From Christensenella sp. UBA5394 (GTDB taxonomy: Bacteria; Bacillota; Clostridia; Christensenellales; CAG-138), in contig DHOI01000110.1 of the NCBI GenBank assembly GCA_002409725.1, positions 18,818 through 42,428 on the forward strand: a stretch of DNA of 23,611 nt, in the 5' to 3' direction. The notes below the pieces were generated by a model, which searched no databases, was not told the DNA's origin, and was given only the letters and a program-made list of their open reading frames with translations. Both the position numbers and the translations under genes were made by a program. Shown in pieces: positions 14,985 through 23,286 of this stretch (position 1 is its first letter; the number at the start of each line of letters is the position of its first letter).

Positions 14985-15335
14985 CTATTTCTTAGTTCCG
15001 AGCCTGAGCCGCAGGGTCTTTTTGATGTGCTTTACAATATCGGCAATGAAGCGGGTCTCCTGTTCGGTACAATCCATCAATTCCTGCATTATCTCATTGT
15101 CGTAAACGGCTTTTGCGATTTTGATATTGTCGCACAGCAATTCATCAACCGAGCTATCCAGCACATTGGCAATTTTCACCAAGGTCTGCAAGGATAACTT
15201 CGTTGATGCAGTTTCGATATTGCTTATATGCTGGACACTAAGCTCTGTTAATTCCGCGAGCTTTTCTTGGGTAAAACCTTGCTTTAACCTGGCTGATCGG
15301 ATTCGTTGGCCGATCATACGATAATTAAGTATCAT
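14985..15335 (-). CDS. XRE-family HTH transcriptional regulator
   Basis: 116 residues from ATG 15335, six bases after GGAGG; an in-frame TTG five codons upstream overlaps that site. Residues about 7-62 form a Cro/C1-type helix-turn-helix (IGQRIRSARLKQGFTQEKLAEL...VQHISNIETAST). The C-terminal half (65-116) is helical (TEQETRFIADIVKHIKKTLRL) and probably dimerises. Gene order is divergent with a diguanylate cyclase gene, and the shared spacer has overlapping palindromes that are good operator candidates. Base composition is lower in GC than flanking genes, as for the cyclase. Confidence 0.93.
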   Translation of the reverse strand: MILNYRMIGQRIRSARLKQGFTQEKLAELTELSVQHISNIETASTKLSLQTLVKIANVLDSSVDELLCDNIKIAKAVYDNEIMQELMDCTEQETRFIADIVKHIKKTLRLRLGTKK

Positions 15336-15364
15336 AAGGGGCCTCCACAACTGCCTTGGGATTA

Positions 15365-15515: not shown

Positions 15516-16400
15516 ATGAAAGCGGAGTTCCCCTCGAATCATCCTGATTGGCAAATGTTGGATATTTACTTTTTGGCTTATAATGAAATAATGAACGGTA
15601 TTTTGATATACGATCTCAACTCTCGCCTTATTTTTGCCAACGATTATATTTTGATGCGCCTGAGCGAGGCGCAATTGAATGATCTGTGGGACACGGATAT
15701 AAAAGACATTCTGGATCAGATCCTTGCAGGGAGTATGCCCTACGAGGGAATTGAAATAAAACCAAAAAATGGTTATACCGCTAAATCCTTTCTGGTTAGC
15801 GGAAAACCATTTTGCCTTGGCGGCGGCTCTTATATTATCCTTACGCTTACCGACATCACGAATTATGCAATGCAGAAAGAGAGCTTACTTTGCAAGTTGG
15901 AGCAGGATTATTTTACGGAAGCGTTGAATAAGTTTGGCCTAAACAAGCAGATAAACAAGCTGATCGCCGCCCCGGATCAAAACCCATTTACGATCTGTAT
16001 GCTGGATTTTGACGGTTTTAAGCAGATCAACGATAATTTCGGGCATTTGACAGGGGATGAAGTATTAAGAACCTTTGCCCATATATCCCGTAAAAGCATA
16101 CGGGGAAGCGATATATTCGGCAGGTACGGCGGCGAGGAATTCGTGTTTGTATTCACCAATACGGGAATTGAGAAGAGCAGCCGGATACTCACTCGAATAC
16201 AAAGCGAATTGAGAAGATGCTTTTCCAGCCTGGATCCTTATACCGTCACGATCAGCGCCGGCATGCTCCACGTAGACCCCCGGGCGGAGCCGCGGTTGGA
16301 TTATCAGGCGCTTATCCATAAAATAGATACGCTCCTTTATACCGCGAAAGCAAACGGAAAAAGCCGCATTGTAACGCCCTTAAAAGAATACCGTTTTTAG
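15516..16400 (+). CDS. PAS-GGDEF diguanylate cyclase
   Basis: 294 residues, AAGGAG nine bases before the ATG. Residues about 15-118 form a PAS-like sensory domain (GILIYDLNSRLIFAND...), without membrane segment, so it is cytoplasmic. A GGDEF domain occupies about 130-290: metal-binding Asp164 in LDFDGFKQIND, active-site RYGGEEF (203-209), and the inhibitory site RGSD (196-199) five residues before it. The active site appears intact, so synthesis of cyclic di-GMP from GTP with product inhibition is expected. No EAL domain. Codons are more AT-rich than in the flanking genes, which hints at a different origin. It is divergent from an XRE regulator. Confidence 0.95.
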   Translation: MKAEFPSNHPDWQMLDIYFLAYNEIMNGILIYDLNSRLIFANDYILMRLSEAQLNDLWDTDIKDILDQILAGSMPYEGIEIKPKNGYTAKSFLVSGKPFCLGGGSYIILTLTDITNYAMQKESLLCKLEQDYFTEALNKFGLNKQINKLIAAPDQNPFTICMLDFDGFKQINDNFGHLTGDEVLRTFAHISRKSIRGSDIFGRYGGEEFVFVFTNTGIEKSSRILTRIQSELRRCFSSLDPYTVTISAGMLHVDPRAEPRLDYQALIHKIDTLLYTAKANGKSRIVTPLKEYRF

Positions 16401-16456: not shown

Positions 16457-16963
<507 letters not shown>

Positions 16964-16983: not shown

Positions 16984-17011
16984 AAATATTAGGGCGGGCC
17001 GGAGCCCGCCC
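16984..17011 (-). terminator. Probable terminator of the cell-wall/icd operon
   Basis: GGGCGGGC (16992-16999), CGGA, GCCCGCCC (17004-17011) form a perfect 8-bp GC stem 30 bp after the icd stop codon. On the minus strand it is followed by TAATATTTTC, a weak T tract. Confidence 0.7.
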
Positions 17012-17041
17012 CCTTGGACACCTTTATAGGTATACCAAATT

Positions 17042-18253
17042 TTAGGCAGCCGCGTCAAGGAATTCTTTGACTTTGCGGATGAAATCCTCAGTGGAGAGCA
17101 CAGTGATGTGTTCCATATCGGCCAGGCTCGCCAGGTCTTTGGTCATAAAGCCGGCCGAAATGGCGTCGAGCGCCGCCTTCTCAAGCTTATCCGCAAAGGC
17201 TCGCAGCTCGGGCAGTCCGTCCAGCTCGCCGCGCTTGCGCAAAGCGCCCGTCCAGGCAAAGAGGGTGGCCATGGAATTGGTGGAGGTCTCCTCCCCTGCC
17301 AAATGCTTATAGTAATGCTTGGTCACGGTGCCGTGGGCTGCCTCGTATTCATAATTGCCCTGCGGAGAGACCAAAACGCTGGTCATCATCGCCAAAGAGC
17401 CAAAGGCCGTGGCCACCATGTCGCTCATCACATCGCCGTCATAGTTCTTGCAGGCCCAGATAAAGCCGCCGCTCGAGCGGATCACGCGAGCCACCGCGTC
17501 GTCGATCAGGGTGTAGAAATAGGTAATGCCCGCCTGCTCGAATTTCTCCTTGTATTCGTCCTCGAAGATATCTTCGAAGATATCCTTGAAGGTGTGATCG
17601 TATTTTTTGGAAATGGTATCCTTGGCGGAAAACCATAGATCCTGTTCGGTGGAAAGGGCGTAGTTAAAGCAGGCCCGGGCAAAGCTTTGGATGGAATCGT
17701 CTTTATTATACATGCCCATGAGCACGCCGGGGGTTTTGAAATCGAAGACCGTTTCGTGGAAAAGTTCGTTGCCGGCTTCGTCCGTGAAGGTGATCTCCGC
17801 CTTGCCCGGGCCAGGCACGCGGAATTCGGTGCACTTGTAGATATCGCCATAGGCGTGGCGGGCAATGGTGATGGGCTTCGTCCAGCTGCGCACGGAGGGC
17901 TGTAGGCAAGGCAGGGTTATGGGCGCGCGGAACACCGTGCCGTCGAGAATGGCCCGGATGGTACCGTTGGGGCTTTTATACATGCGCTTGAGCTTGTATT
18001 CCTCGACCCGCTGCGCGTTGGGGGTGATGGTGGCGCATTTAACGCCCACGCCGTATTTCTTTACAGCCTCGGCCGCGTCGATGGTAATCTGGTCGTCCGT
18101 CGCGTCCCGCGAGAGCAGGCCCAGGTCGTAATATTCGGTTTTTAGCTCGATATAAGGCTCCAGAAGATGCGCTTTGATCATCTTCCAGATGATGCGGGTC
18201 ATTTCGTCCCCATCCATTTCCACAAGGGGGGTCTTCATTTGAATCTTGCTCAT
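17042..18253 (-). CDS. icd: NADP-type isocitrate dehydrogenase, eukaryote-like homodimeric subfamily
   Basis: 403 residues from ATG 18253 after GGAGG. It catalyses oxidative decarboxylation of isocitrate to 2-oxoglutarate. The sequence belongs to the subfamily of human IDH1/IDH2, and residues fall at the same numbers as in IDH1: Thr77, Ser94, Asn96, Arg100, Arg109, Arg132 (ARHAYGD) and Tyr139. The metal-binding region KNYDGDVMSDMVA and the cofactor loop AAHGTVTKHY are present; the latter fits NADP. No citrate synthase or aconitase gene is near. It starts 15 bp after the ddl-like gene and is the last gene of the operon, so 2-oxoglutarate/NADPH supply may be co-expressed with cell-wall genes. 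No odd residues noted; the repeated FEDIFED peptide fits the family. Confidence 0.96.
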   Translation of the reverse strand: MSKIQMKTPLVEMDGDEMTRIIWKMIKAHLLEPYIELKTEYYDLGLLSRDATDDQITIDAAEAVKKYGVGVKCATITPNAQRVEEYKLKRMYKSPNGTIRAILDGTVFRAPITLPCLQPSVRSWTKPITIARHAYGDIYKCTEFRVPGPGKAEITFTDEAGNELFHETVFDFKTPGVLMGMYNKDDSIQSFARACFNYALSTEQDLWFSAKDTISKKYDHTFKDIFEDIFEDEYKEKFEQAGITYFYTLIDDAVARVIRSSGGFIWACKNYDGDVMSDMVATAFGSLAMMTSVLVSPQGNYEYEAAHGTVTKHYYKHLAGEETSTNSMATLFAWTGALRKRGELDGLPELRAFADKLEKAALDAISAGFMTKDLASLADMEHITVLSTEDFIRKVKEFLDAAA

Positions 18254-18268
18254 AGCTGACCTCCTACT

Positions 18269-19432
18269 TTACTTTTTTATTATTTTGGCACCGGAAATCG
18301 CTTTGTTTAAAATTTCCGAGCTGTAGGCGAAACTGGATTCCCGCTTCTGTTCAAGGCCCCGCCGGGCATACTGCACCAGCTTGTCGATCAGGGCGGAGAA
18401 GGGCAGGCCCATGGGCTCGTAGAGGTAAAAGGCGAAAGAGCCGGGGATGGTGTTGATCTCGTTCACATAAACCGTGTCGCCTTCTAAAATATAATCCACC
18501 CGCACCACGCCCTTGCATTCGAGCATGCCGAAAATATCCGCGGTATAGCCCCGGATACGGCTGGTCATCTCTTCGCTGATGGGCGCGGGCACCTGGCGGG
18601 CTAGGCTCTTCATGCCCTTGCCGCCGCCCCGGGTGTATTTATCCTCAAAGGAAAGGAATTCATCCCAGCCTGCGGGCTGCTCGCAGAGGGAAGGGATGAT
18701 CTCGCCCTCAAAGCCCAGGCAGGCACAGTTGATCTCTATGGGTTTTTCCACGGCCCGCTCGATGAGGATGCGGCGGTCGAAGCTGGCCGCCACCTCAATG
18801 GCCTGGCGGAGCTTTTCACGATCCGTGGCCTTACCGATGCCGATAGAGCTGCCGAGGTTGGCCGGCTTGACAAACAGGGGGTAGCCCAGCTCTTTTTCCG
18901 CGCGCTCAATCACGGTCTCCGGCTCTTTTTGCCACTCGGCCCTGTAGCAATAGATGCTGGGCAAAGTGGGCAGACCCATGCTTTTGAACACGGCCTTCAT
19001 CACAATCTTATCCATACCCACGGCGCTGCCCACCAGGCCGCAGCTCGAATAGGGGATATCCGCCAATTCGAACAGCCCCTGCAGGGTTCCATCCTCCCCG
19101 TGCATGCCATGCATGGCCAGGATGGCGCAATCGAGGGCCGCGGCCTTTTGCATTTTGCCAAAGAGGCCGGAGCCAAAGGTATAAAGGCCGTTGTGCCCCG
19201 GCTCCGCCGGGAGGAACACCCGCGTAAGGCCCTTTTGATCGGGGTTGAAATTGCGGTAAGTCTTGATATCCCTTAAGGGCTCGCCAATGAACCACTCGCC
19301 CGTGCGGGAAATATAGATGGGAAAGGAATGATACTTGCTCTTATCCGCGTTTTCGAGAATTTGGAGCCCGCTGATGACCGATACATCGTGCTCGGCCGCC
19401 CGGCTGCCAAAGATTACGCCCAGTTCCAGCAT
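18269..19432 (-). CDS. ddl: D-alanine--D-alanine ligase family protein
   Basis: 387 residues, ATG 19432 after AAGGGG. An ATP-grasp ligase: N-terminal GSRAAEHDVSVISG (equivalent to GGxSAEHEVS), AMHGMHGEDGTLQG, GSSIGIG and the C-terminal metal-binding NEINTIPGS. It should join two D-alanines for peptidoglycan. The loop before the second ATP-binding part is longer than in E. coli Ddl (about 15 residues between EDKY and the following PAP) and lacks the equivalent Tyr of classical D-Ala-D-Ala ligases; the usual NTMPGF is NTIPGS. This resembles a distinct clostridial clade, so acceptor specificity is not certain. Its neighbour is a MurF-like ligase, which would attach the dipeptide; it is 29 bp after murF and 15 bp before icd. 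Confidence 0.9.
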   Translation of the reverse strand: MLELGVIFGSRAAEHDVSVISGLQILENADKSKYHSFPIYISRTGEWFIGEPLRDIKTYRNFNPDQKGLTRVFLPAEPGHNGLYTFGSGLFGKMQKAAALDCAILAMHGMHGEDGTLQGLFELADIPYSSCGLVGSAVGMDKIVMKAVFKSMGLPTLPSIYCYRAEWQKEPETVIERAEKELGYPLFVKPANLGSSIGIGKATDREKLRQAIEVAASFDRRILIERAVEKPIEINCACLGFEGEIIPSLCEQPAGWDEFLSFEDKYTRGGGKGMKSLARQVPAPISEEMTSRIRGYTADIFGMLECKGVVRVDYILEGDTVYVNEINTIPGSFAFYLYEPMGLPFSALIDKLVQYARRGLEQKRESSFAYSSEILNKAISGAKIIKK

Positions 19433-19461
19433 ATCGATGCGCCCCTTCCTTTTAGCTGAAT

Positions 19462-21135
19462 TTAATTATAATTATCCGTCAGGTCGTTTTCAAAGAGCAC
19501 GGTGCAGCCCGGCTCCTGATAGAGTGGCAGCTTTTCCGTGGCCTGAGCCAGCGTATCCACCCGGATAAGGCAGCTTTCGGGGAAATCCTCGCTAAGCAGC
19601 CCCGCCTCCATGGCGGGCCCGTTGGGGCCGACCAGTATGGCAATATCCGTACAGGCGGCCATGTGCGCGCCGAATTCTTGATTGAGCGCCCCCTGCTCCT
19701 CGCCCAGCTCCACCAAGCCCGGGGTCACGATGATGCGGCGGCCGGGGAAGCGTTTGAGTACTTCCAAGGCTTCGCCCGCGCCCACGGGGTTGGCATTGAA
19801 GGCGTCGTCGATCACGGTAATCGGGCCCTTGATGAGCTGGAGCCTGTGCTCCACCGGCGCCAGGTTGGCGATGCCGGCGGCGATTTCCTCGCCCGTGAGG
19901 CCCAGGTAATAAGCGAGAGCCGCCGCACCGGTCACATTGAGAATGTTATGCCTGCCCAGGAGGGCTGTGGCGCAGGGGATGCGGCCGCCATCCGCGGCGG
20001 CCAGCTCAAAGCGGCTGCCTTCTGGGCCCACGCTGATATGCTCGGCCCGCATATACAGGCCCTCACCCTCCGTGCCGAAGAGATATTTCTTGCCTGGAAT
20101 ATCGTAGCCCTCGTAGATTTCCCGGCAGATAGGGTCGTCCCCGTTAAGAAAGCAAACCCCATCCTCGGTAAGGCCCGCCATCAGCTCCGCCTTGGTGCGG
20201 ATCACGTTCTCCAAAGAGCCGAAAGTCTCCAAATGCTGCTTGCCTACGGCGGTGATGATGCCGTATCGTGGCCTCACCAGGCGGCAAAGCTCGGCGATAT
20301 CACCCTTGTAGCGCGCGCCCATCTCCGCGATAAAAACCTGATGATCTTCCGTGAGCTGCTCGCGGATCACACGGGTCACGCCCATGGGCGTGTTGAAGCT
20401 GCCGGGAGTGAAGAGGGTGTTGTATTTTTCCGCCAGCAGGGTGCCCAGGGCGTATTTGGTGGAGGTTTTGCCAAAGCTGCCGGTAATGCCGATGCGGATC
20501 AGATTCGGGTTTTTAAGCAGACGCTTTTTCGCGTCGTTCAGGTACCAGCCCTGCACCAGCTTTTCCAGGGGCCAGGTGATAAGATAGGCCACAAAGACCG
20601 TGAGCGGCAGCAGCATGCCGGGCAAAAAGCGGATGAGTTCCGGCCAAAGGCCGTAATCCATCCAACCGCCCCAGGGCTGAATGCCATTCAACAGCTGGCC
20701 CATGTAGATGCTTTGAAGCCATAGCCGCAGGATGGGACCAAGAAAAGCCAAAATAAACAGCGGCACCAGCAGCCGCTTCACCCGGGCGGTATAGGCCAAG
20801 GGCTTTTTGGCTTCCTTTTGCCCTTTAAGGGCGGCAAAGCCGTAAAAAGCCAGCATAGCCGTGTAGAGCAAATCGCCCCCGCGCCAGATCCAGGCGCCCG
20901 CGCCCGTGCCGAGGATCATCCCGGCCACACGCAGGAGCAGCCCCGCGGCACCGGCCAGCAGCGGCCCCGTCCATTGGCCGCTGTGCTTAGCGACCCATTT
21001 TAGATACATGCGGCCCTGGTAGCTCTCCAGTTGCAGCATGTGCACAAAGGGGATGGCCGCCACGGCCACCGCCAGCGCATCCGCAAGCAGGTAGGCCCAA
21101 AAGGTCAGCTGGATCAAGATCTCCGTGGTTTCCAT
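19462..21135 (-). CDS. murF: Membrane-anchored MurF-like Mur ligase
   Basis: 557 residues. The first about 195 residues are a membrane domain with four or five hydrophobic segments (starting LTFWAYLLADALAVAVAAIPF); the family's normal soluble UDP-substrate domain is missing. The Mur ligase part then begins with the P-loop GITGSFGKTSTK (about 216-227). Further motifs: FNTPMGVTRVI, AEMGARYKGDI, AVGKQHLETFGS, KAELM, LNGDDP, GRHNILNVTGAAALA, VEHRLQLI, DDAFNANPVGAGEAL and GLVELGEEQ. These match MurF, which adds D-Ala-D-Ala to the UDP-MurNAc-tripeptide. The anchor could place it at the membrane or change the acceptor, for example to a lipid-linked form; this is inference. The ATG at 21135 has GAGG upstream. 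It lies between a hydrolase gene and the ddl-like gene in one operon. Confidence 0.88.
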   Translation of the reverse strand: METTEILIQLTFWAYLLADALAVAVAAIPFVHMLQLESYQGRMYLKWVAKHSGQWTGPLLAGAAGLLLRVAGMILGTGAGAWIWRGGDLLYTAMLAFYGFAALKGQKEAKKPLAYTARVKRLLVPLFILAFLGPILRLWLQSIYMGQLLNGIQPWGGWMDYGLWPELIRFLPGMLLPLTVFVAYLITWPLEKLVQGWYLNDAKKRLLKNPNLIRIGITGSFGKTSTKYALGTLLAEKYNTLFTPGSFNTPMGVTRVIREQLTEDHQVFIAEMGARYKGDIAELCRLVRPRYGIITAVGKQHLETFGSLENVIRTKAELMAGLTEDGVCFLNGDDPICREIYEGYDIPGKKYLFGTEGEGLYMRAEHISVGPEGSRFELAAADGGRIPCATALLGRHNILNVTGAAALAYYLGLTGEEIAAGIANLAPVEHRLQLIKGPITVIDDAFNANPVGAGEALEVLKRFPGRRIIVTPGLVELGEEQGALNQEFGAHMAACTDIAILVGPNGPAMEAGLLSEDFPESCLIRVDTLAQATEKLPLYQEPGCTVLFENDLTDNYN

Positions 21136-21177
21136 ATTCTATGCCTCGCAGGAAAATAAAATTTTCATAATTCAGCC

Positions 21178-21939
21178 CTACTTGCCGCTAAACAAGACCC
21201 GCAGGATTGAGCAAAAGCGGGGATAATCCTCGGCGTAGGAAAAATGCCCAGCGCCGGGGATAATCGCTAAACCGGCGTTTTGCATCTCCCGCTCCATCTT
21301 TTGGCCCATCCACAGGGGGGTATCCATATCCTTTTCGCCCCAGATGAGCAGGGTCTCGTTAGGGATTTGGGAAAGCCTGGGGGAAAGGTCTAAATTGACG
21401 ATTTTTACGTAGGCGGCGCGCATATTGCCGCTCAGCTGCCTGTATTCCTCGGAGCCGGCCCGTTTTTGCTTTTCGCTAATGCGAAGGAGCCGGTCGAGCC
21501 AGGCGATCTTCATCAGCTTTTTGCCCAGCTTATAGGCGTAGACGCGTACGTAATACCGTGGCTTGCGCCTGGGCTTGACGCCGGCCGCATCCACCAGCAC
21601 CAGCCGGCCAAAGAGCGCGGGCTCTTCGCTGGCCAGGTAAATGGCCACCCTTCCGCCAAAGGAATGGGCGATCACATCACAGCCGATGATGCCCAGCGCC
21701 TCCATAAAGGCGCGGGTGCAGGCGGCATATTCCGGCACGCCCCAAGGGCCGGACGGATCACCGCTCTGGCCAAAGCCGGGGAAATCCAGCGAAACGGCCT
21801 CATAGCCCAGGGAAGCGACACATTGGGCGATGGAGCGCACGGCCTCCACGCTGGCCCCCCAGCCATGGAGTAGCAGCACGGGCCTGCCCGTACCCAGCCG
21901 CTCGTAACGGAGGGAAGCGCCGCTGATGGTGATGGTCAA
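21178..21939 (-). CDS. Alpha/beta hydrolase
   Basis: 253 residues from a TTG start at 21939, eight bases after GAGGG, which overlaps the stop of the GlmU-like gene 12 bp away. No ATG in a sensible place was found. Features of an alpha/beta-hydrolase fold: oxyanion stretch LLHGWGAS (23-30), nucleophile Ser93 in AHSFGGR, Asp in WGEKDMDTP (204 or 206), and His232 in GAGHFSY. A basic helical cap (about 123-165) precedes the third part. No signal peptide, so it should be cytoplasmic. Substrate unknown. Its place within the ddl/murF operon suggests a link with cell-wall precursor or undecaprenyl metabolism; function cannot be stated. Confidence 0.9.
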   Translation of the reverse strand: MTITISGASLRYERLGTGRPVLLLHGWGASVEAVRSIAQCVASLGYEAVSLDFPGFGQSGDPSGPWGVPEYAACTRAFMEALGIIGCDVIAHSFGGRVAIYLASEEPALFGRLVLVDAAGVKPRRKPRYYVRVYAYKLGKKLMKIAWLDRLLRISEKQKRAGSEEYRQLSGNMRAAYVKIVNLDLSPRLSQIPNETLLIWGEKDMDTPLWMGQKMEREMQNAGLAIIPGAGHFSYAEDYPRFCSILRVLFSGK

Positions 21940-21951
21940 ATCTATGCCCTC

Positions 21952-23211
21952 TTACTTCTCTTTTTTCCGTTTGGGGGAAACCCACCCCTCGAGGTTGGCC
22001 TGCCTGGCCCTGCCGATGCCCAAAGCATCCGCGGGCACATCCTTGGTGATGGTGGAGCCGGCCGCCGTGTAGGCGCGGTCCCCCAGCTTCACGGGGGCCA
22101 CCAGGGAGGTGTTGCAGCCCAGGAACACATCGTCGCCAATGGCGGTGCGGTGCTTGCGCGCGCCGTCGTAATTGGCAAAGGCCGTGCCGCAGCCGATGTT
22201 GATGCGCTTGCCGATATCCGCATCCCCCACATAGGTCAGGTGGGCCACCTTGCCCCCATCCCCCAATGTGGCGTTCTTAACCTCTACAAAATTGCCGATC
22301 TTGCAGCCCTTGCCAAGGTGTGCGTTGGGCCGCAGGCGCACGAAGGGGCCTACGCTGGTTCCATCCTCGATGGCAGCCTCCTGGGCCACCACCGAAGCCA
22401 GCTCGCAGCCATCCCCCACGATGGTATCCTGCAGGCGGCAGCCGTCGTAGATGGTGCAGCCGCAGCCGATGCGGGTATCCCCTTGCAAAAATACGCCGGG
22501 GTAGACCACCGTATCCTCGCCGATTGTGACGTCCGCGTCGATATAGGCGCGGCCCGGGTCAATAAAGGTAACGCCGTTATACATATGGCGCGCGTTAATG
22601 GCGGATTGGCGCAGGCAGGTGCACTGCCAAAGGTCCTCCCGATCGCGCACGCCGAGGCATTCCGCAGCCGGCGCGTAAACATCCACCACCCGCTCCCCTT
22701 CCATGCGCAGGGCACGGATGCAATGCTCCGCCATGGCGTCGTGCGTGGCCTCTTGCTGCAGGAAACTGCGCAGGCGGCCGATTTCAAAACAATAGCAGGG
22801 GCAGGTGCGGGTCTCTTCATCTTCTTCGCAATAGACCAGGCGGGAGGCCGCCTCGCCCTCTGCCGCATCTACCAGCATACCCACGGTACCGGCGTCCAGC
22901 AGGGGTAGGTTGCCATGGATCAGCAGCACATAGCCCTCCTCCTGCTCGATGCCGGATAGGGCGCTGAGGATGGCCTGGGCCAGGGTGCCGGTTTGCAGCG
23001 CGATGTGCGCCCGTTCGCCCACGTGCGTCTCCACGGCGCGGGCGTCGAACCCGGCCACCACGATGGGCCTATGCTCGATATTGCCTTCACAGGCATGAAA
23101 GACCCATTCGAGCATACTCTTGCCGCAGATCTCATGCAGGGCCTTCTGACGCCGCGAGCGCATGCTGGGGCTCTCTGCAGCGACGGGAATGATGGCTGTA
23201 ATCGCTTTCAT
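21952..23211 (-). CDS. glmU: GlmU-like protein with degenerate uridylyltransferase half and intact acetyltransferase half
   Basis: 419 residues from ATG 23211, nine bases after GAGG; a TTG two codons upstream is too close. The N-terminal half aligns with the GlmU pyrophosphorylase but the nucleotide loop AAGxGTRM is replaced by VAAESPSMRSR, the metal Asp of GDVPL is Asn101 (GNLPL), and the GYGR and EINTG/NxxxEYYLTD motifs are absent. The C-terminal half from about 216 is a left-handed beta helix, with RLRP, GNFVEVK, His324 in AHLTYVGD, GCGTAFANYDG and the FLG...LVAPV repeats, which are the acetyl-CoA and GlcN-1-P site motifs of GlmU. So acetyltransferase activity is plausible and UTP transfer is not (inference). 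First gene of the operon with the hydrolase, MurF-like, Ddl-like and icd genes. Confidence 0.88.
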   Translation of the reverse strand: MKAITAIIPVAAESPSMRSRRQKALHEICGKSMLEWVFHACEGNIEHRPIVVAGFDARAVETHVGERAHIALQTGTLAQAILSALSGIEQEEGYVLLIHGNLPLLDAGTVGMLVDAAEGEAASRLVYCEEDEETRTCPCYCFEIGRLRSFLQQEATHDAMAEHCIRALRMEGERVVDVYAPAAECLGVRDREDLWQCTCLRQSAINARHMYNGVTFIDPGRAYIDADVTIGEDTVVYPGVFLQGDTRIGCGCTIYDGCRLQDTIVGDGCELASVVAQEAAIEDGTSVGPFVRLRPNAHLGKGCKIGNFVEVKNATLGDGGKVAHLTYVGDADIGKRINIGCGTAFANYDGARKHRTAIGDDVFLGCNTSLVAPVKLGDRAYTAAGSTITKDVPADALGIGRARQANLEGWVSPKRKKEK

Positions 23212-23256
23212 TTTCAAATACCTCTATCATACCTCTGTGCATAGTACCTGTGTACC

Positions 23257-23286
23257 ATTTTAGGGGGGCTACGGGCGCCCTGTCAA
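23257..23286 (-). promoter_or_regulatory. Promoter of the glmU-like/murF/ddl/icd operon
   Basis: Consensus TTGACA (23286-23281), 18 bp spacer and TAAAAT (23262-23257), about 45 bp before the start codon. The short direct repeat GGTAC lies just downstream. Confidence 0.8.

Follow-up and report, generated by a model that had tools for sequence, protein, structure and literature searches.

A membrane MurF-like ligase in a conserved three-gene cassette: a candidate membrane step for the final dipeptide of peptidoglycan in many Clostridia

At which step, and on which substrate, does a MurF-like ligase act when membrane helices stand in the place of its substrate-binding domain? The question is raised by a 23,611-nucleotide stretch of the genome of Christensenella sp. 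UBA5394 (contig DHOI01000110.1; the whole stretch is referred to as the window, and all positions follow its numbering). It carries five tightly packed minus-strand genes at 23217-17042, present as the preliminary description of this DNA had placed them: a GlmU-like gene, an α/β-hydrolase gene (abh), the gene of a membrane MurF-like ligase (mMurF), a ddl gene and the isocitrate dehydrogenase gene icd. The action of MurF on the tripeptide linked to uridine diphosphate (UDP) is commonly regarded as a soluble step of general occurrence and as a drug target, and Mur ligases grip the UDP of their substrate with an N-terminal domain. The gene contents compared below support well that a cassette of abh, mMurF and ddl replaces soluble MurF, and usually also Ddl. 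In many gut and anaerobic bacteria the cell-wall peptide appears to be completed by a membrane-embedded enzyme, and the data suggest that the final dipeptide step takes place on the membrane there. The cassette, its domains and its motifs are located as follows.

21178..21939, minus strand: abh, α/β-hydrolase, core gene 1 (PF00561, neighbourhood and AlphaFold model)
19462..21135, minus strand: mMurF, 557 amino acids, core gene 2 (PF08245 and PF02875; structure model with a mean predicted local distance difference test score, pLDDT, of 93.1)
20518..21135, minus strand: membrane domain at the N terminus of mMurF (residues 1-206 with about five helices), replacing the UDP-binding domain of MurF
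20995..21042, minus strand: mMurF motif H32-x-LQLESYQ-x2-MY-x2-W47, probably cytosolic (Q35 and Y39 invariant)
20773..20805, minus strand: mMurF basic motif KPLxxTxRxxR (K111-R121), probably cytosolic (conservation among members)
20464..20484, minus strand: mMurF Walker A motif TGSFGKT, residues 218-224, catalytic core (sequence motif)
18269..19432, minus strand: ddl, variant D-Ala-D-Ala-type ligase, core gene 3 (sole Ddl found in the window's own genome)
18584..18640, minus strand: Ddl loop from K265-Y266 to A283, longer than in canonical Ddl (sequence comparison)
18422..18460, minus strand: Ddl acceptor-site segment E325-x-N327-xx-PGS-xxx-Y336-L337 (with Tyr where the Ser for the acceptor carboxylate is expected)

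Like MurF (TIGR01143; PDB 4cvm and 4qf5), mMurF has the Mur middle and C-terminal domains (PF08245, Mur_ligase_M, and PF02875, Mur_ligase_C), the ATP site, the DDxFNAN motif and a linked Ddl gene. It differs from MurF in that about five membrane helices take the place of a recognisable N-terminal UDP-binding domain; TIGR01143 matches the window protein at positions 69-403 only, with 227.9 bits under a cut-off of 288.6, and PF01225, the N-terminal Mur domain, which MurE of this genome does possess, has no match in it. The membrane-bound ligase devoid of the usual substrate domain that had been read from the letters alone is thus seen here as well. The closest solved fold to the structure model is that of MurF (Foldseek), in alignments that have 356-419 columns and so roughly match the Mur core in length, with the VIA rows mainly at residues 106-557; as the search was run on the whole protein, the membrane domain may have a known fold. 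The comparisons within families use alignments of 98, 98 and 107 sequences, picked by profile score and length. Among the 107 mMurF members, residues Q35, Y39, T116, R118, R121 and E191 of the motifs, which the predicted membrane topology places in the cytosol, are at least 99% conserved, a TxRxxR-type motif occurs in all 107, and polar residues of the membrane domain are as invariant as the catalytic ones. The mMurF group has a support of 0.469 in a MurF tree of 46 sampled sequences (13 canonical, 2 MurE; rooting not fixed).

Does this protein stand beside MurF or instead of it? A curated murF model, applied to 41 genomes (the window's own and 40 relatives), found canonical MurF over the cut-off with a near full-length match in 14 and mMurF in the other 27; no genome among the 41 held both. 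For 26 of these mMurF genomes the TIGR01143 match extends from position 54-76 to about 400 with 169-255 bits, with shorter ends in G017 and G026 (376) and in G039 (367); in G036, the remaining one, it is broken into a piece of 136 bits and one of 85 bits, starting at position 57. For the window's own genome alone the absence of canonical MurF is weak evidence, because the assembly (1.90 Mb, 144 contigs) is 85.6% complete and MurC is not among its three Mur_ligase_M matches. The preliminary description had allowed for canonical murF, ddl and glmU elsewhere in this genome; in the assembled part of it, the cassette copies are the only ones found, and GlmU lies under its cut-off. That mMurF is an extra copy beside a normal MurF was ruled out in the window's lineage, and two sister species of 95% and 97% completeness (G001 and G002) agree. 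One canonical genome (G007) has a second MurF-like gene (L214, 3164-4612, 482 amino acids) away from its ddl-murF pair; the encoded protein is soluble and canonical-like, scoring 231 bits with the canonical profile vs 111 with the membrane profile, and has no membrane segment at the threshold used.

The same partition is seen across the class, in a sample of 393 genomes at 90% completeness or more, with the window's own (85.6%) counted within. The scoring took in four first-look candidates from each genome for MurF and at most eight for an alignment of the membrane domain, and the genomes were sorted by hand on the best E-value; weaker second copies could be missed, because few candidates per genome were scored. 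The membrane-domain alignment matched 67 genomes, of which three (G301, G340 and G370; E 6e-4 to 9e-4) were set aside, and the resulting 64 include one (G065) counted on a membrane domain in a 213-residue open frame only. Canonical MurF over the cut-off is absent from 62 of these 64, so the cassette is not an extra modification pathway in most genomes; of the two possibilities that had been raised for this locus, a membrane-associated variant route to a D-Ala-D-X end is supported. The class totals are 322 canonical (two also with mMurF), 62 with mMurF only and nine with neither in full; of these nine, G205, G348, G356 and G415 have canonical-like fragments, and no recognisable fragments were found in G102, G188, G267, G312 and G397. 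The 64 genomes span 22 families, eight of which mix canonical-only and mMurF-only members, and in the window's own family the two stand side by side. Phylum-wide, 19 of 299 genomes match, one marginally. With a tree of 25 MraY sequences as the stand-in for a species tree, the kind of MurF changes at least four times (shuffled labels: mean 7.6, minimum 4). No plasmid-borne place covering 80% of the mMurF query was found among the 10 of 99 records listed.

Which genes travel with mMurF was examined in the MurF regions of 26 other related mMurF genomes and of 13 of the 14 canonical ones (G010 left out), the window bringing the mMurF loci to 27. abh adjoins mMurF in all 27, and a Ddl of the window type follows in 26, the locus without it (L054) having about 1.5 kb left to the contig end; the order abh-mMurF-ddl accordingly recurs in 26 of 27. 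At least five loci have glmU beside abh and at least ten have icd downstream, the counts for glmU, icd and the SEC-C gene mentioned below being lower bounds because some loci end close to the trio. The conserved unit is abh-mMurF-ddl, and glmU and icd are lineage-specific neighbours; a five-gene pathway with icd and glmU is rejected on these counts, and the unit first described has to be narrowed by its two outer genes. In two loci from metagenome-assembled genomes (MAGs), L051 and L068, the abh reading frame is split into two, through a fault of assembly or through decay.

A second set, the best 80 of 568 confirmed relatives in contigs of named genomes, gives the same picture. The order abh-mMurF-ddl is present in 71 of the 80; four have abh-mMurF without Ddl (L098, L116, L134 and L154, the sequence ending soon after mMurF in the last two), one has no abh (L138, with mMurF at the sequence end), and in four mMurF is alone (L106, L141, L145 and L157, the sequence of L141 beginning at mMurF). 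Similar Mur ligase, hydrolase and Ddl neighbourhoods in clostridia had been mentioned in the preliminary description, which also considered that there might be no conserved one; the order of the trio proves to be widely conserved. With start codons chosen mechanically, the median gap is 12 nucleotides between abh and mMurF (75 loci, 16 overlapping) and 18 between mMurF and Ddl (72 loci, 9 overlapping). Among these named loci are those of [Clostridium] ultunense, Sedimentibacter, Sporosalibacterium and Pseudalkalibacillus decolorationis, and the remaining ones are mostly Clostridia MAGs, the titles of many pointing to animal guts. One locus, L123, belongs to a MAG labelled Poribacteria; its genes, named by Pfam domain and order, run PBP, murE-type Mur ligase, abh, mMurF, ddl, mraY, murD, ftsW, murG; the cassette thus sits inside the division (dcw) cluster between the murE-type gene and mraY, in the place of murF. 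In the window's own genome mraY comes directly after murE.

What might such an enzyme act on? MurT of the lipid II isoglutaminyl synthase MurT/GatD offers a precedent: MurT and mMurF are both Mur ligase cores without the UDP-binding domain, and PMC6085368 and PMC6113224 describe MurT as using lipid I and lipid II. MurT did not amidate soluble UDP precursors (PMC6085368), and the aureus structure is interpreted in PMC6113224 to mean that MurT has no need of a UDP domain, which would probably collide with the membrane. The two proteins are otherwise distinct, with mMurF scoring 17.4 of 800 bits on the MurT model NF045635 and the integral membrane domain belonging to mMurF; a GatD-type gene was not found among the five operon genes, to which the search for it was confined. 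We take the acceptor of mMurF to be lipid-linked because MurT, without a UDP domain, uses lipid I and lipid II, and we consider it somewhat probable that abh-mMurF-Ddl is an exchangeable cassette in which mMurF adds the dipeptide made by Ddl to an undecaprenyl-linked tripeptide.

In the mechanism that we infer, MraY would move the tripeptide precursor onto the lipid before the mMurF step, and Ddl would supply a D-Ala-D-X dipeptide in which X is probably D-Ala. mMurF, in which the ATP-dependent catalytic core of MurF is kept, would join this dipeptide to undecaprenyl diphosphate-linked N-acetylmuramyl-tripeptide (C55-PP-MurNAc-tripeptide), lipid I being a more likely acceptor than lipid II, and the cytosolic motifs (QLxSYQ...Y and the basic KPLxxTxRxxR) may hold the diphosphate of the lipid-linked acceptor. 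abh would be an intact partner encoded upstream of mMurF, the two frames overlapping in some loci, and its editing or trimming activity is a guess. MurF chemistry would thereby be carried out in a different architecture and probably at a different step. The complete scheme, in which MraY loads MurNAc-tripeptide and an integral-membrane MurF adds the dipeptide on the lipid with the help of an altered Ddl and an editing hydrolase, in many Clostridia and some others, is advanced more tentatively.

Several observations weigh against ligation on a lipid by a fixed trio. Three named loci that are flanked on both sides (L106, L145 and L157) hold mMurF without abh or ddl, so these are not obligatory neighbours, and the genomes of the three have no canonical MurF over the cut-off. 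Both kinds of MurF occur in two of the 64 class mMurF genomes (G235 and G341), each with a complete cassette, and in four of 14 named genomes picked from the 80; in the other ten, such as Pseudalkalibacillus decolorationis DSM 14890 (L120), mMurF is the only kind found. PF01225 misses the murE-type protein of L123 too, at 1e-6, so its absence from mMurF alone is weak evidence of domain loss. PMC6113224 also refers to a report of MurT taking the place of MurE in vitro, so the MurT precedent is not absolute. The basic motifs of mMurF could bind the diphosphate of UDP as well as that of a lipid. MraY, which would have to accept a tripeptide precursor and might then be expected to be adapted to it, had a match in 39 of the 41 genomes and gave 30 loci, of which 25 sequences passed a motif filter (16 mMurF, 9 canonical; 5 dropped); in these 25 no column splits mMurF from canonical genomes beyond random (best mutual information 0.60; random maximum, mean 0.62).

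Two of these points come with side observations. The solitary mMurF genes of L106, L145 and L157 lie in MAGs that carry the labels Thiomargarita, Balneola and Nitrospirae; unless these labels are mistaken, the enzyme also works outside Bacillota without abh and Ddl as neighbours. The four named genomes with both canonical MurF and the cassette are those of L103, L104, L136 and L159 (a Tissierellia MAG, [Clostridium] ultunense, Sporosalibacterium and Sedimentibacter).

Because MraY shows no group-specific column, an enzyme that replaces MurF and still uses soluble UDP-MurNAc-tripeptide stays in consideration. The membrane domain would then tether it beside MraY, its loops gripping the diphosphate of UDP and the pentapeptide being channelled to MraY. 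The replacement data suit this explanation as well, and so does the cassette of L123, which adjoins mraY. mMurF, however, has no recognisable uridine-binding domain, and MurT, likewise without one, is the enzyme that left soluble UDP precursors unamidated (PMC6085368); we regard the tethered arrangement as rather doubtful.

Returning to ligation on the lipid, the two partners of mMurF remain to be placed. The window abh scores 83.2 bits on PF00561 (cut-off 25.8), its AlphaFold model has a pLDDT of 94.7, and the triad S93, D204 and H232 is invariant and the GSxDY motif conserved in 98 members. It is, judged by this triad, a catalytically intact partner of mMurF, and its position directly before mMurF suggests a direct part in the route. 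The model resembles generic esterases and hydrolases at 18-25% identity among the 50 matches listed, and no substrate can be assigned to abh because its structural neighbours are of this generic kind; an editing or trimming esterase or amidase for a mis-made dipeptide or precursor is what we would guess.

The cassette Ddl possesses both Dala_Dala_lig domains (PF07478 included) and scores 292.8 bits on NF002528, over the cut-off of 262. Of the 27 mMurF genomes, 25 have one Ddl match above 100 bits, and G021 and G038 have two. All 13 canonical loci read have a Ddl of their own directly before MurF, of another subtype and without abh. The N- and C-terminal Dala_Dala_lig domains, the KY motif (kept in 97 of 98 cassette Ddl) and the conserved Glu and Arg are common to the cassette Ddl, canonical Ddl and the Van D-Ala-D-Lac and D-Ala-D-Ser ligases. 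The cassette enzyme departs from canonical Ddl in three respects, namely a Tyr for the acceptor Ser, four residues deleted after it, and a longer loop after the KY motif, the last being the long unusual loop noticed when the locus was first described. In E. coli DdlB the carboxylate of the acceptor D-Ala lies at the hydroxyl of Ser-281 (PMC5717164). The corresponding place in 98 cassette members holds Tyr in 92 and Arg in one, the motif not being matched in five (Tyr336 is 99% conserved in the alignment of the same 98), and holds Ser in 13 of 13 canonical Ddl of the neighbouring loci.

It is therefore possible, given the altered acceptor site, that X is other than D-Ala. The product itself would be changed if the variant Ddl joined D-Ala to a partner that is not D-Ala and the hydrolase removed wrong or blocked products, so that the stem ended in D-Ala-D-X. 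The Ser-to-Tyr exchange with its four-residue deletion speaks for this, as do the Ser of every neighbouring canonical Ddl and the invariant hydrolase triad. Against it stand the retained KY motif, the fact that a specificity is not settled by two sites, and the scores of the cassette Ddl, which lie far under the cut-off of every Van ligase model shown (best 25 of 42 families; VanG, for example, 222.2 of 495 bits). A changed product is, on balance, unlikely.

An ordinary MurF/Ddl pair with the usual substrate and product, to which a membrane anchor was added at random as a neutral quirk of the lineage, is still less probable. The core motifs of mMurF are those of MurF, and sources that give such proteins a name call them MurF or Mur ligase (120 listed of 7449 matches at E up to 0.001, from 8000 candidates scored; not all of these need be of the membrane kind). 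A neutral anchor accords poorly with polar membrane-domain residues as invariant as catalytic ones, with recurrent swapping in the company of fixed partners and with the altered Ddl site. A role in making another polymer or a wall specific to sporulation, and not the main peptidoglycan, which the four of 14 named genomes with both kinds might favour, is very improbable, since mMurF is the sole MurF found over the cut-offs in 62 class genomes and lies inside the dcw cluster in L123.

A large set of anaerobes, 64 of 393 class genomes, has swapped MurF as a three-gene unit, and the recurrent swaps make the question testable, as the same group of organisms runs either module. A lipid-linked substrate would alter the order of the pathway and make the last 'cytoplasmic' step a membrane step; MurF inhibitors modelled on UDP substrates might then miss these bacteria, and the membrane-embedded ligase would be a new kind of target. 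In searches of openly licensed literature, covering titles and the starts of abstracts, neither a membrane MurF nor the abh-mMurF-ddl cassette was found described.

The genes and signals that border the cassette are listed below. Between the five genes, from the GlmU-like gene to icd, the gaps are 12, 42, 29 and 15 nucleotides.

23257..23286, minus strand: promoter-like TTGACA-18-TAAAAT upstream of the operon (consensus scan only)
21952..23217, minus strand: GlmU-like protein, 421 amino acids from TTG (ATG at 23211), non-core neighbour
17042..18253, minus strand: icd, isocitrate dehydrogenase dependent on nicotinamide adenine dinucleotide phosphate (NADP), non-core downstream neighbour
16991..17012, minus strand: terminator-like hairpin 3' of icd with a 9-bp G+C-rich stem (consensus scan only)

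The single promoter first proposed for the operon corresponds to a good promoter-like site at the expected place, as a consensus match only; eight such sites were found vs 3.5 (standard deviation 1.8) in shuffles. The terminator scan is overall not above chance, because seven sites were found vs 9.1 (standard deviation 3.4) in shuffles.

The GlmU-like protein falls below the GlmU cut-offs (350.5 of 366.85 bits for TIGR01173; 389.9 of 450 for a second model) because of its N-terminal half, which matches as a separate weak piece of 57 bits; the acetyltransferase half is well matched and the uridylyltransferase half is degenerate. Its N-terminal signature loop, AAESPSMRSRRQK, departs from GxGTRM...PK, which we take to be the uridylyltransferase signature, in keeping with the lack of uridylyltransferase motifs noted earlier. 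The orthologue of a sister species (G002) passes the cut-off with 398.9 bits when the pieces are added. Only eight of the 41 genomes have a GlmU match over the cut-off, and a split or reduced GlmU is accordingly frequent within the order, canonical-MurF genomes included. A UDPGP-type (PF01704) UDP-GlcNAc pyrophosphorylase was rejected as partner of the degenerate GlmU, being present in three of the 41 genomes and not found in the window's own. G001 encodes a 799-residue NTP_transferase-hexapeptide-phosphomutase protein, with a partly masked homologue in the window's own genome, which might be a candidate supplier of the UDP-GlcNAc step. The GlmU-like and related frames are at 21952-23217 of the window, 1093-3492 of L171 and 509-1711 of L170.

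The icd product scores over the cut-off of TIGR00127, a model named after eukaryotic NADP-dependent isocitrate dehydrogenase (544 bits vs 397), and also passed PRK08299. Downstream of the operon, a SEC-C motif protein (PF02810) is encoded at 16457-16963; 11 of the 27 loci, the window among them, have such a gene on the downstream side of the cassette. Nearby, a helix-turn-helix protein (14985-15350, minus strand) is divergent from a GGDEF diguanylate cyclase (15516-16400, plus strand).

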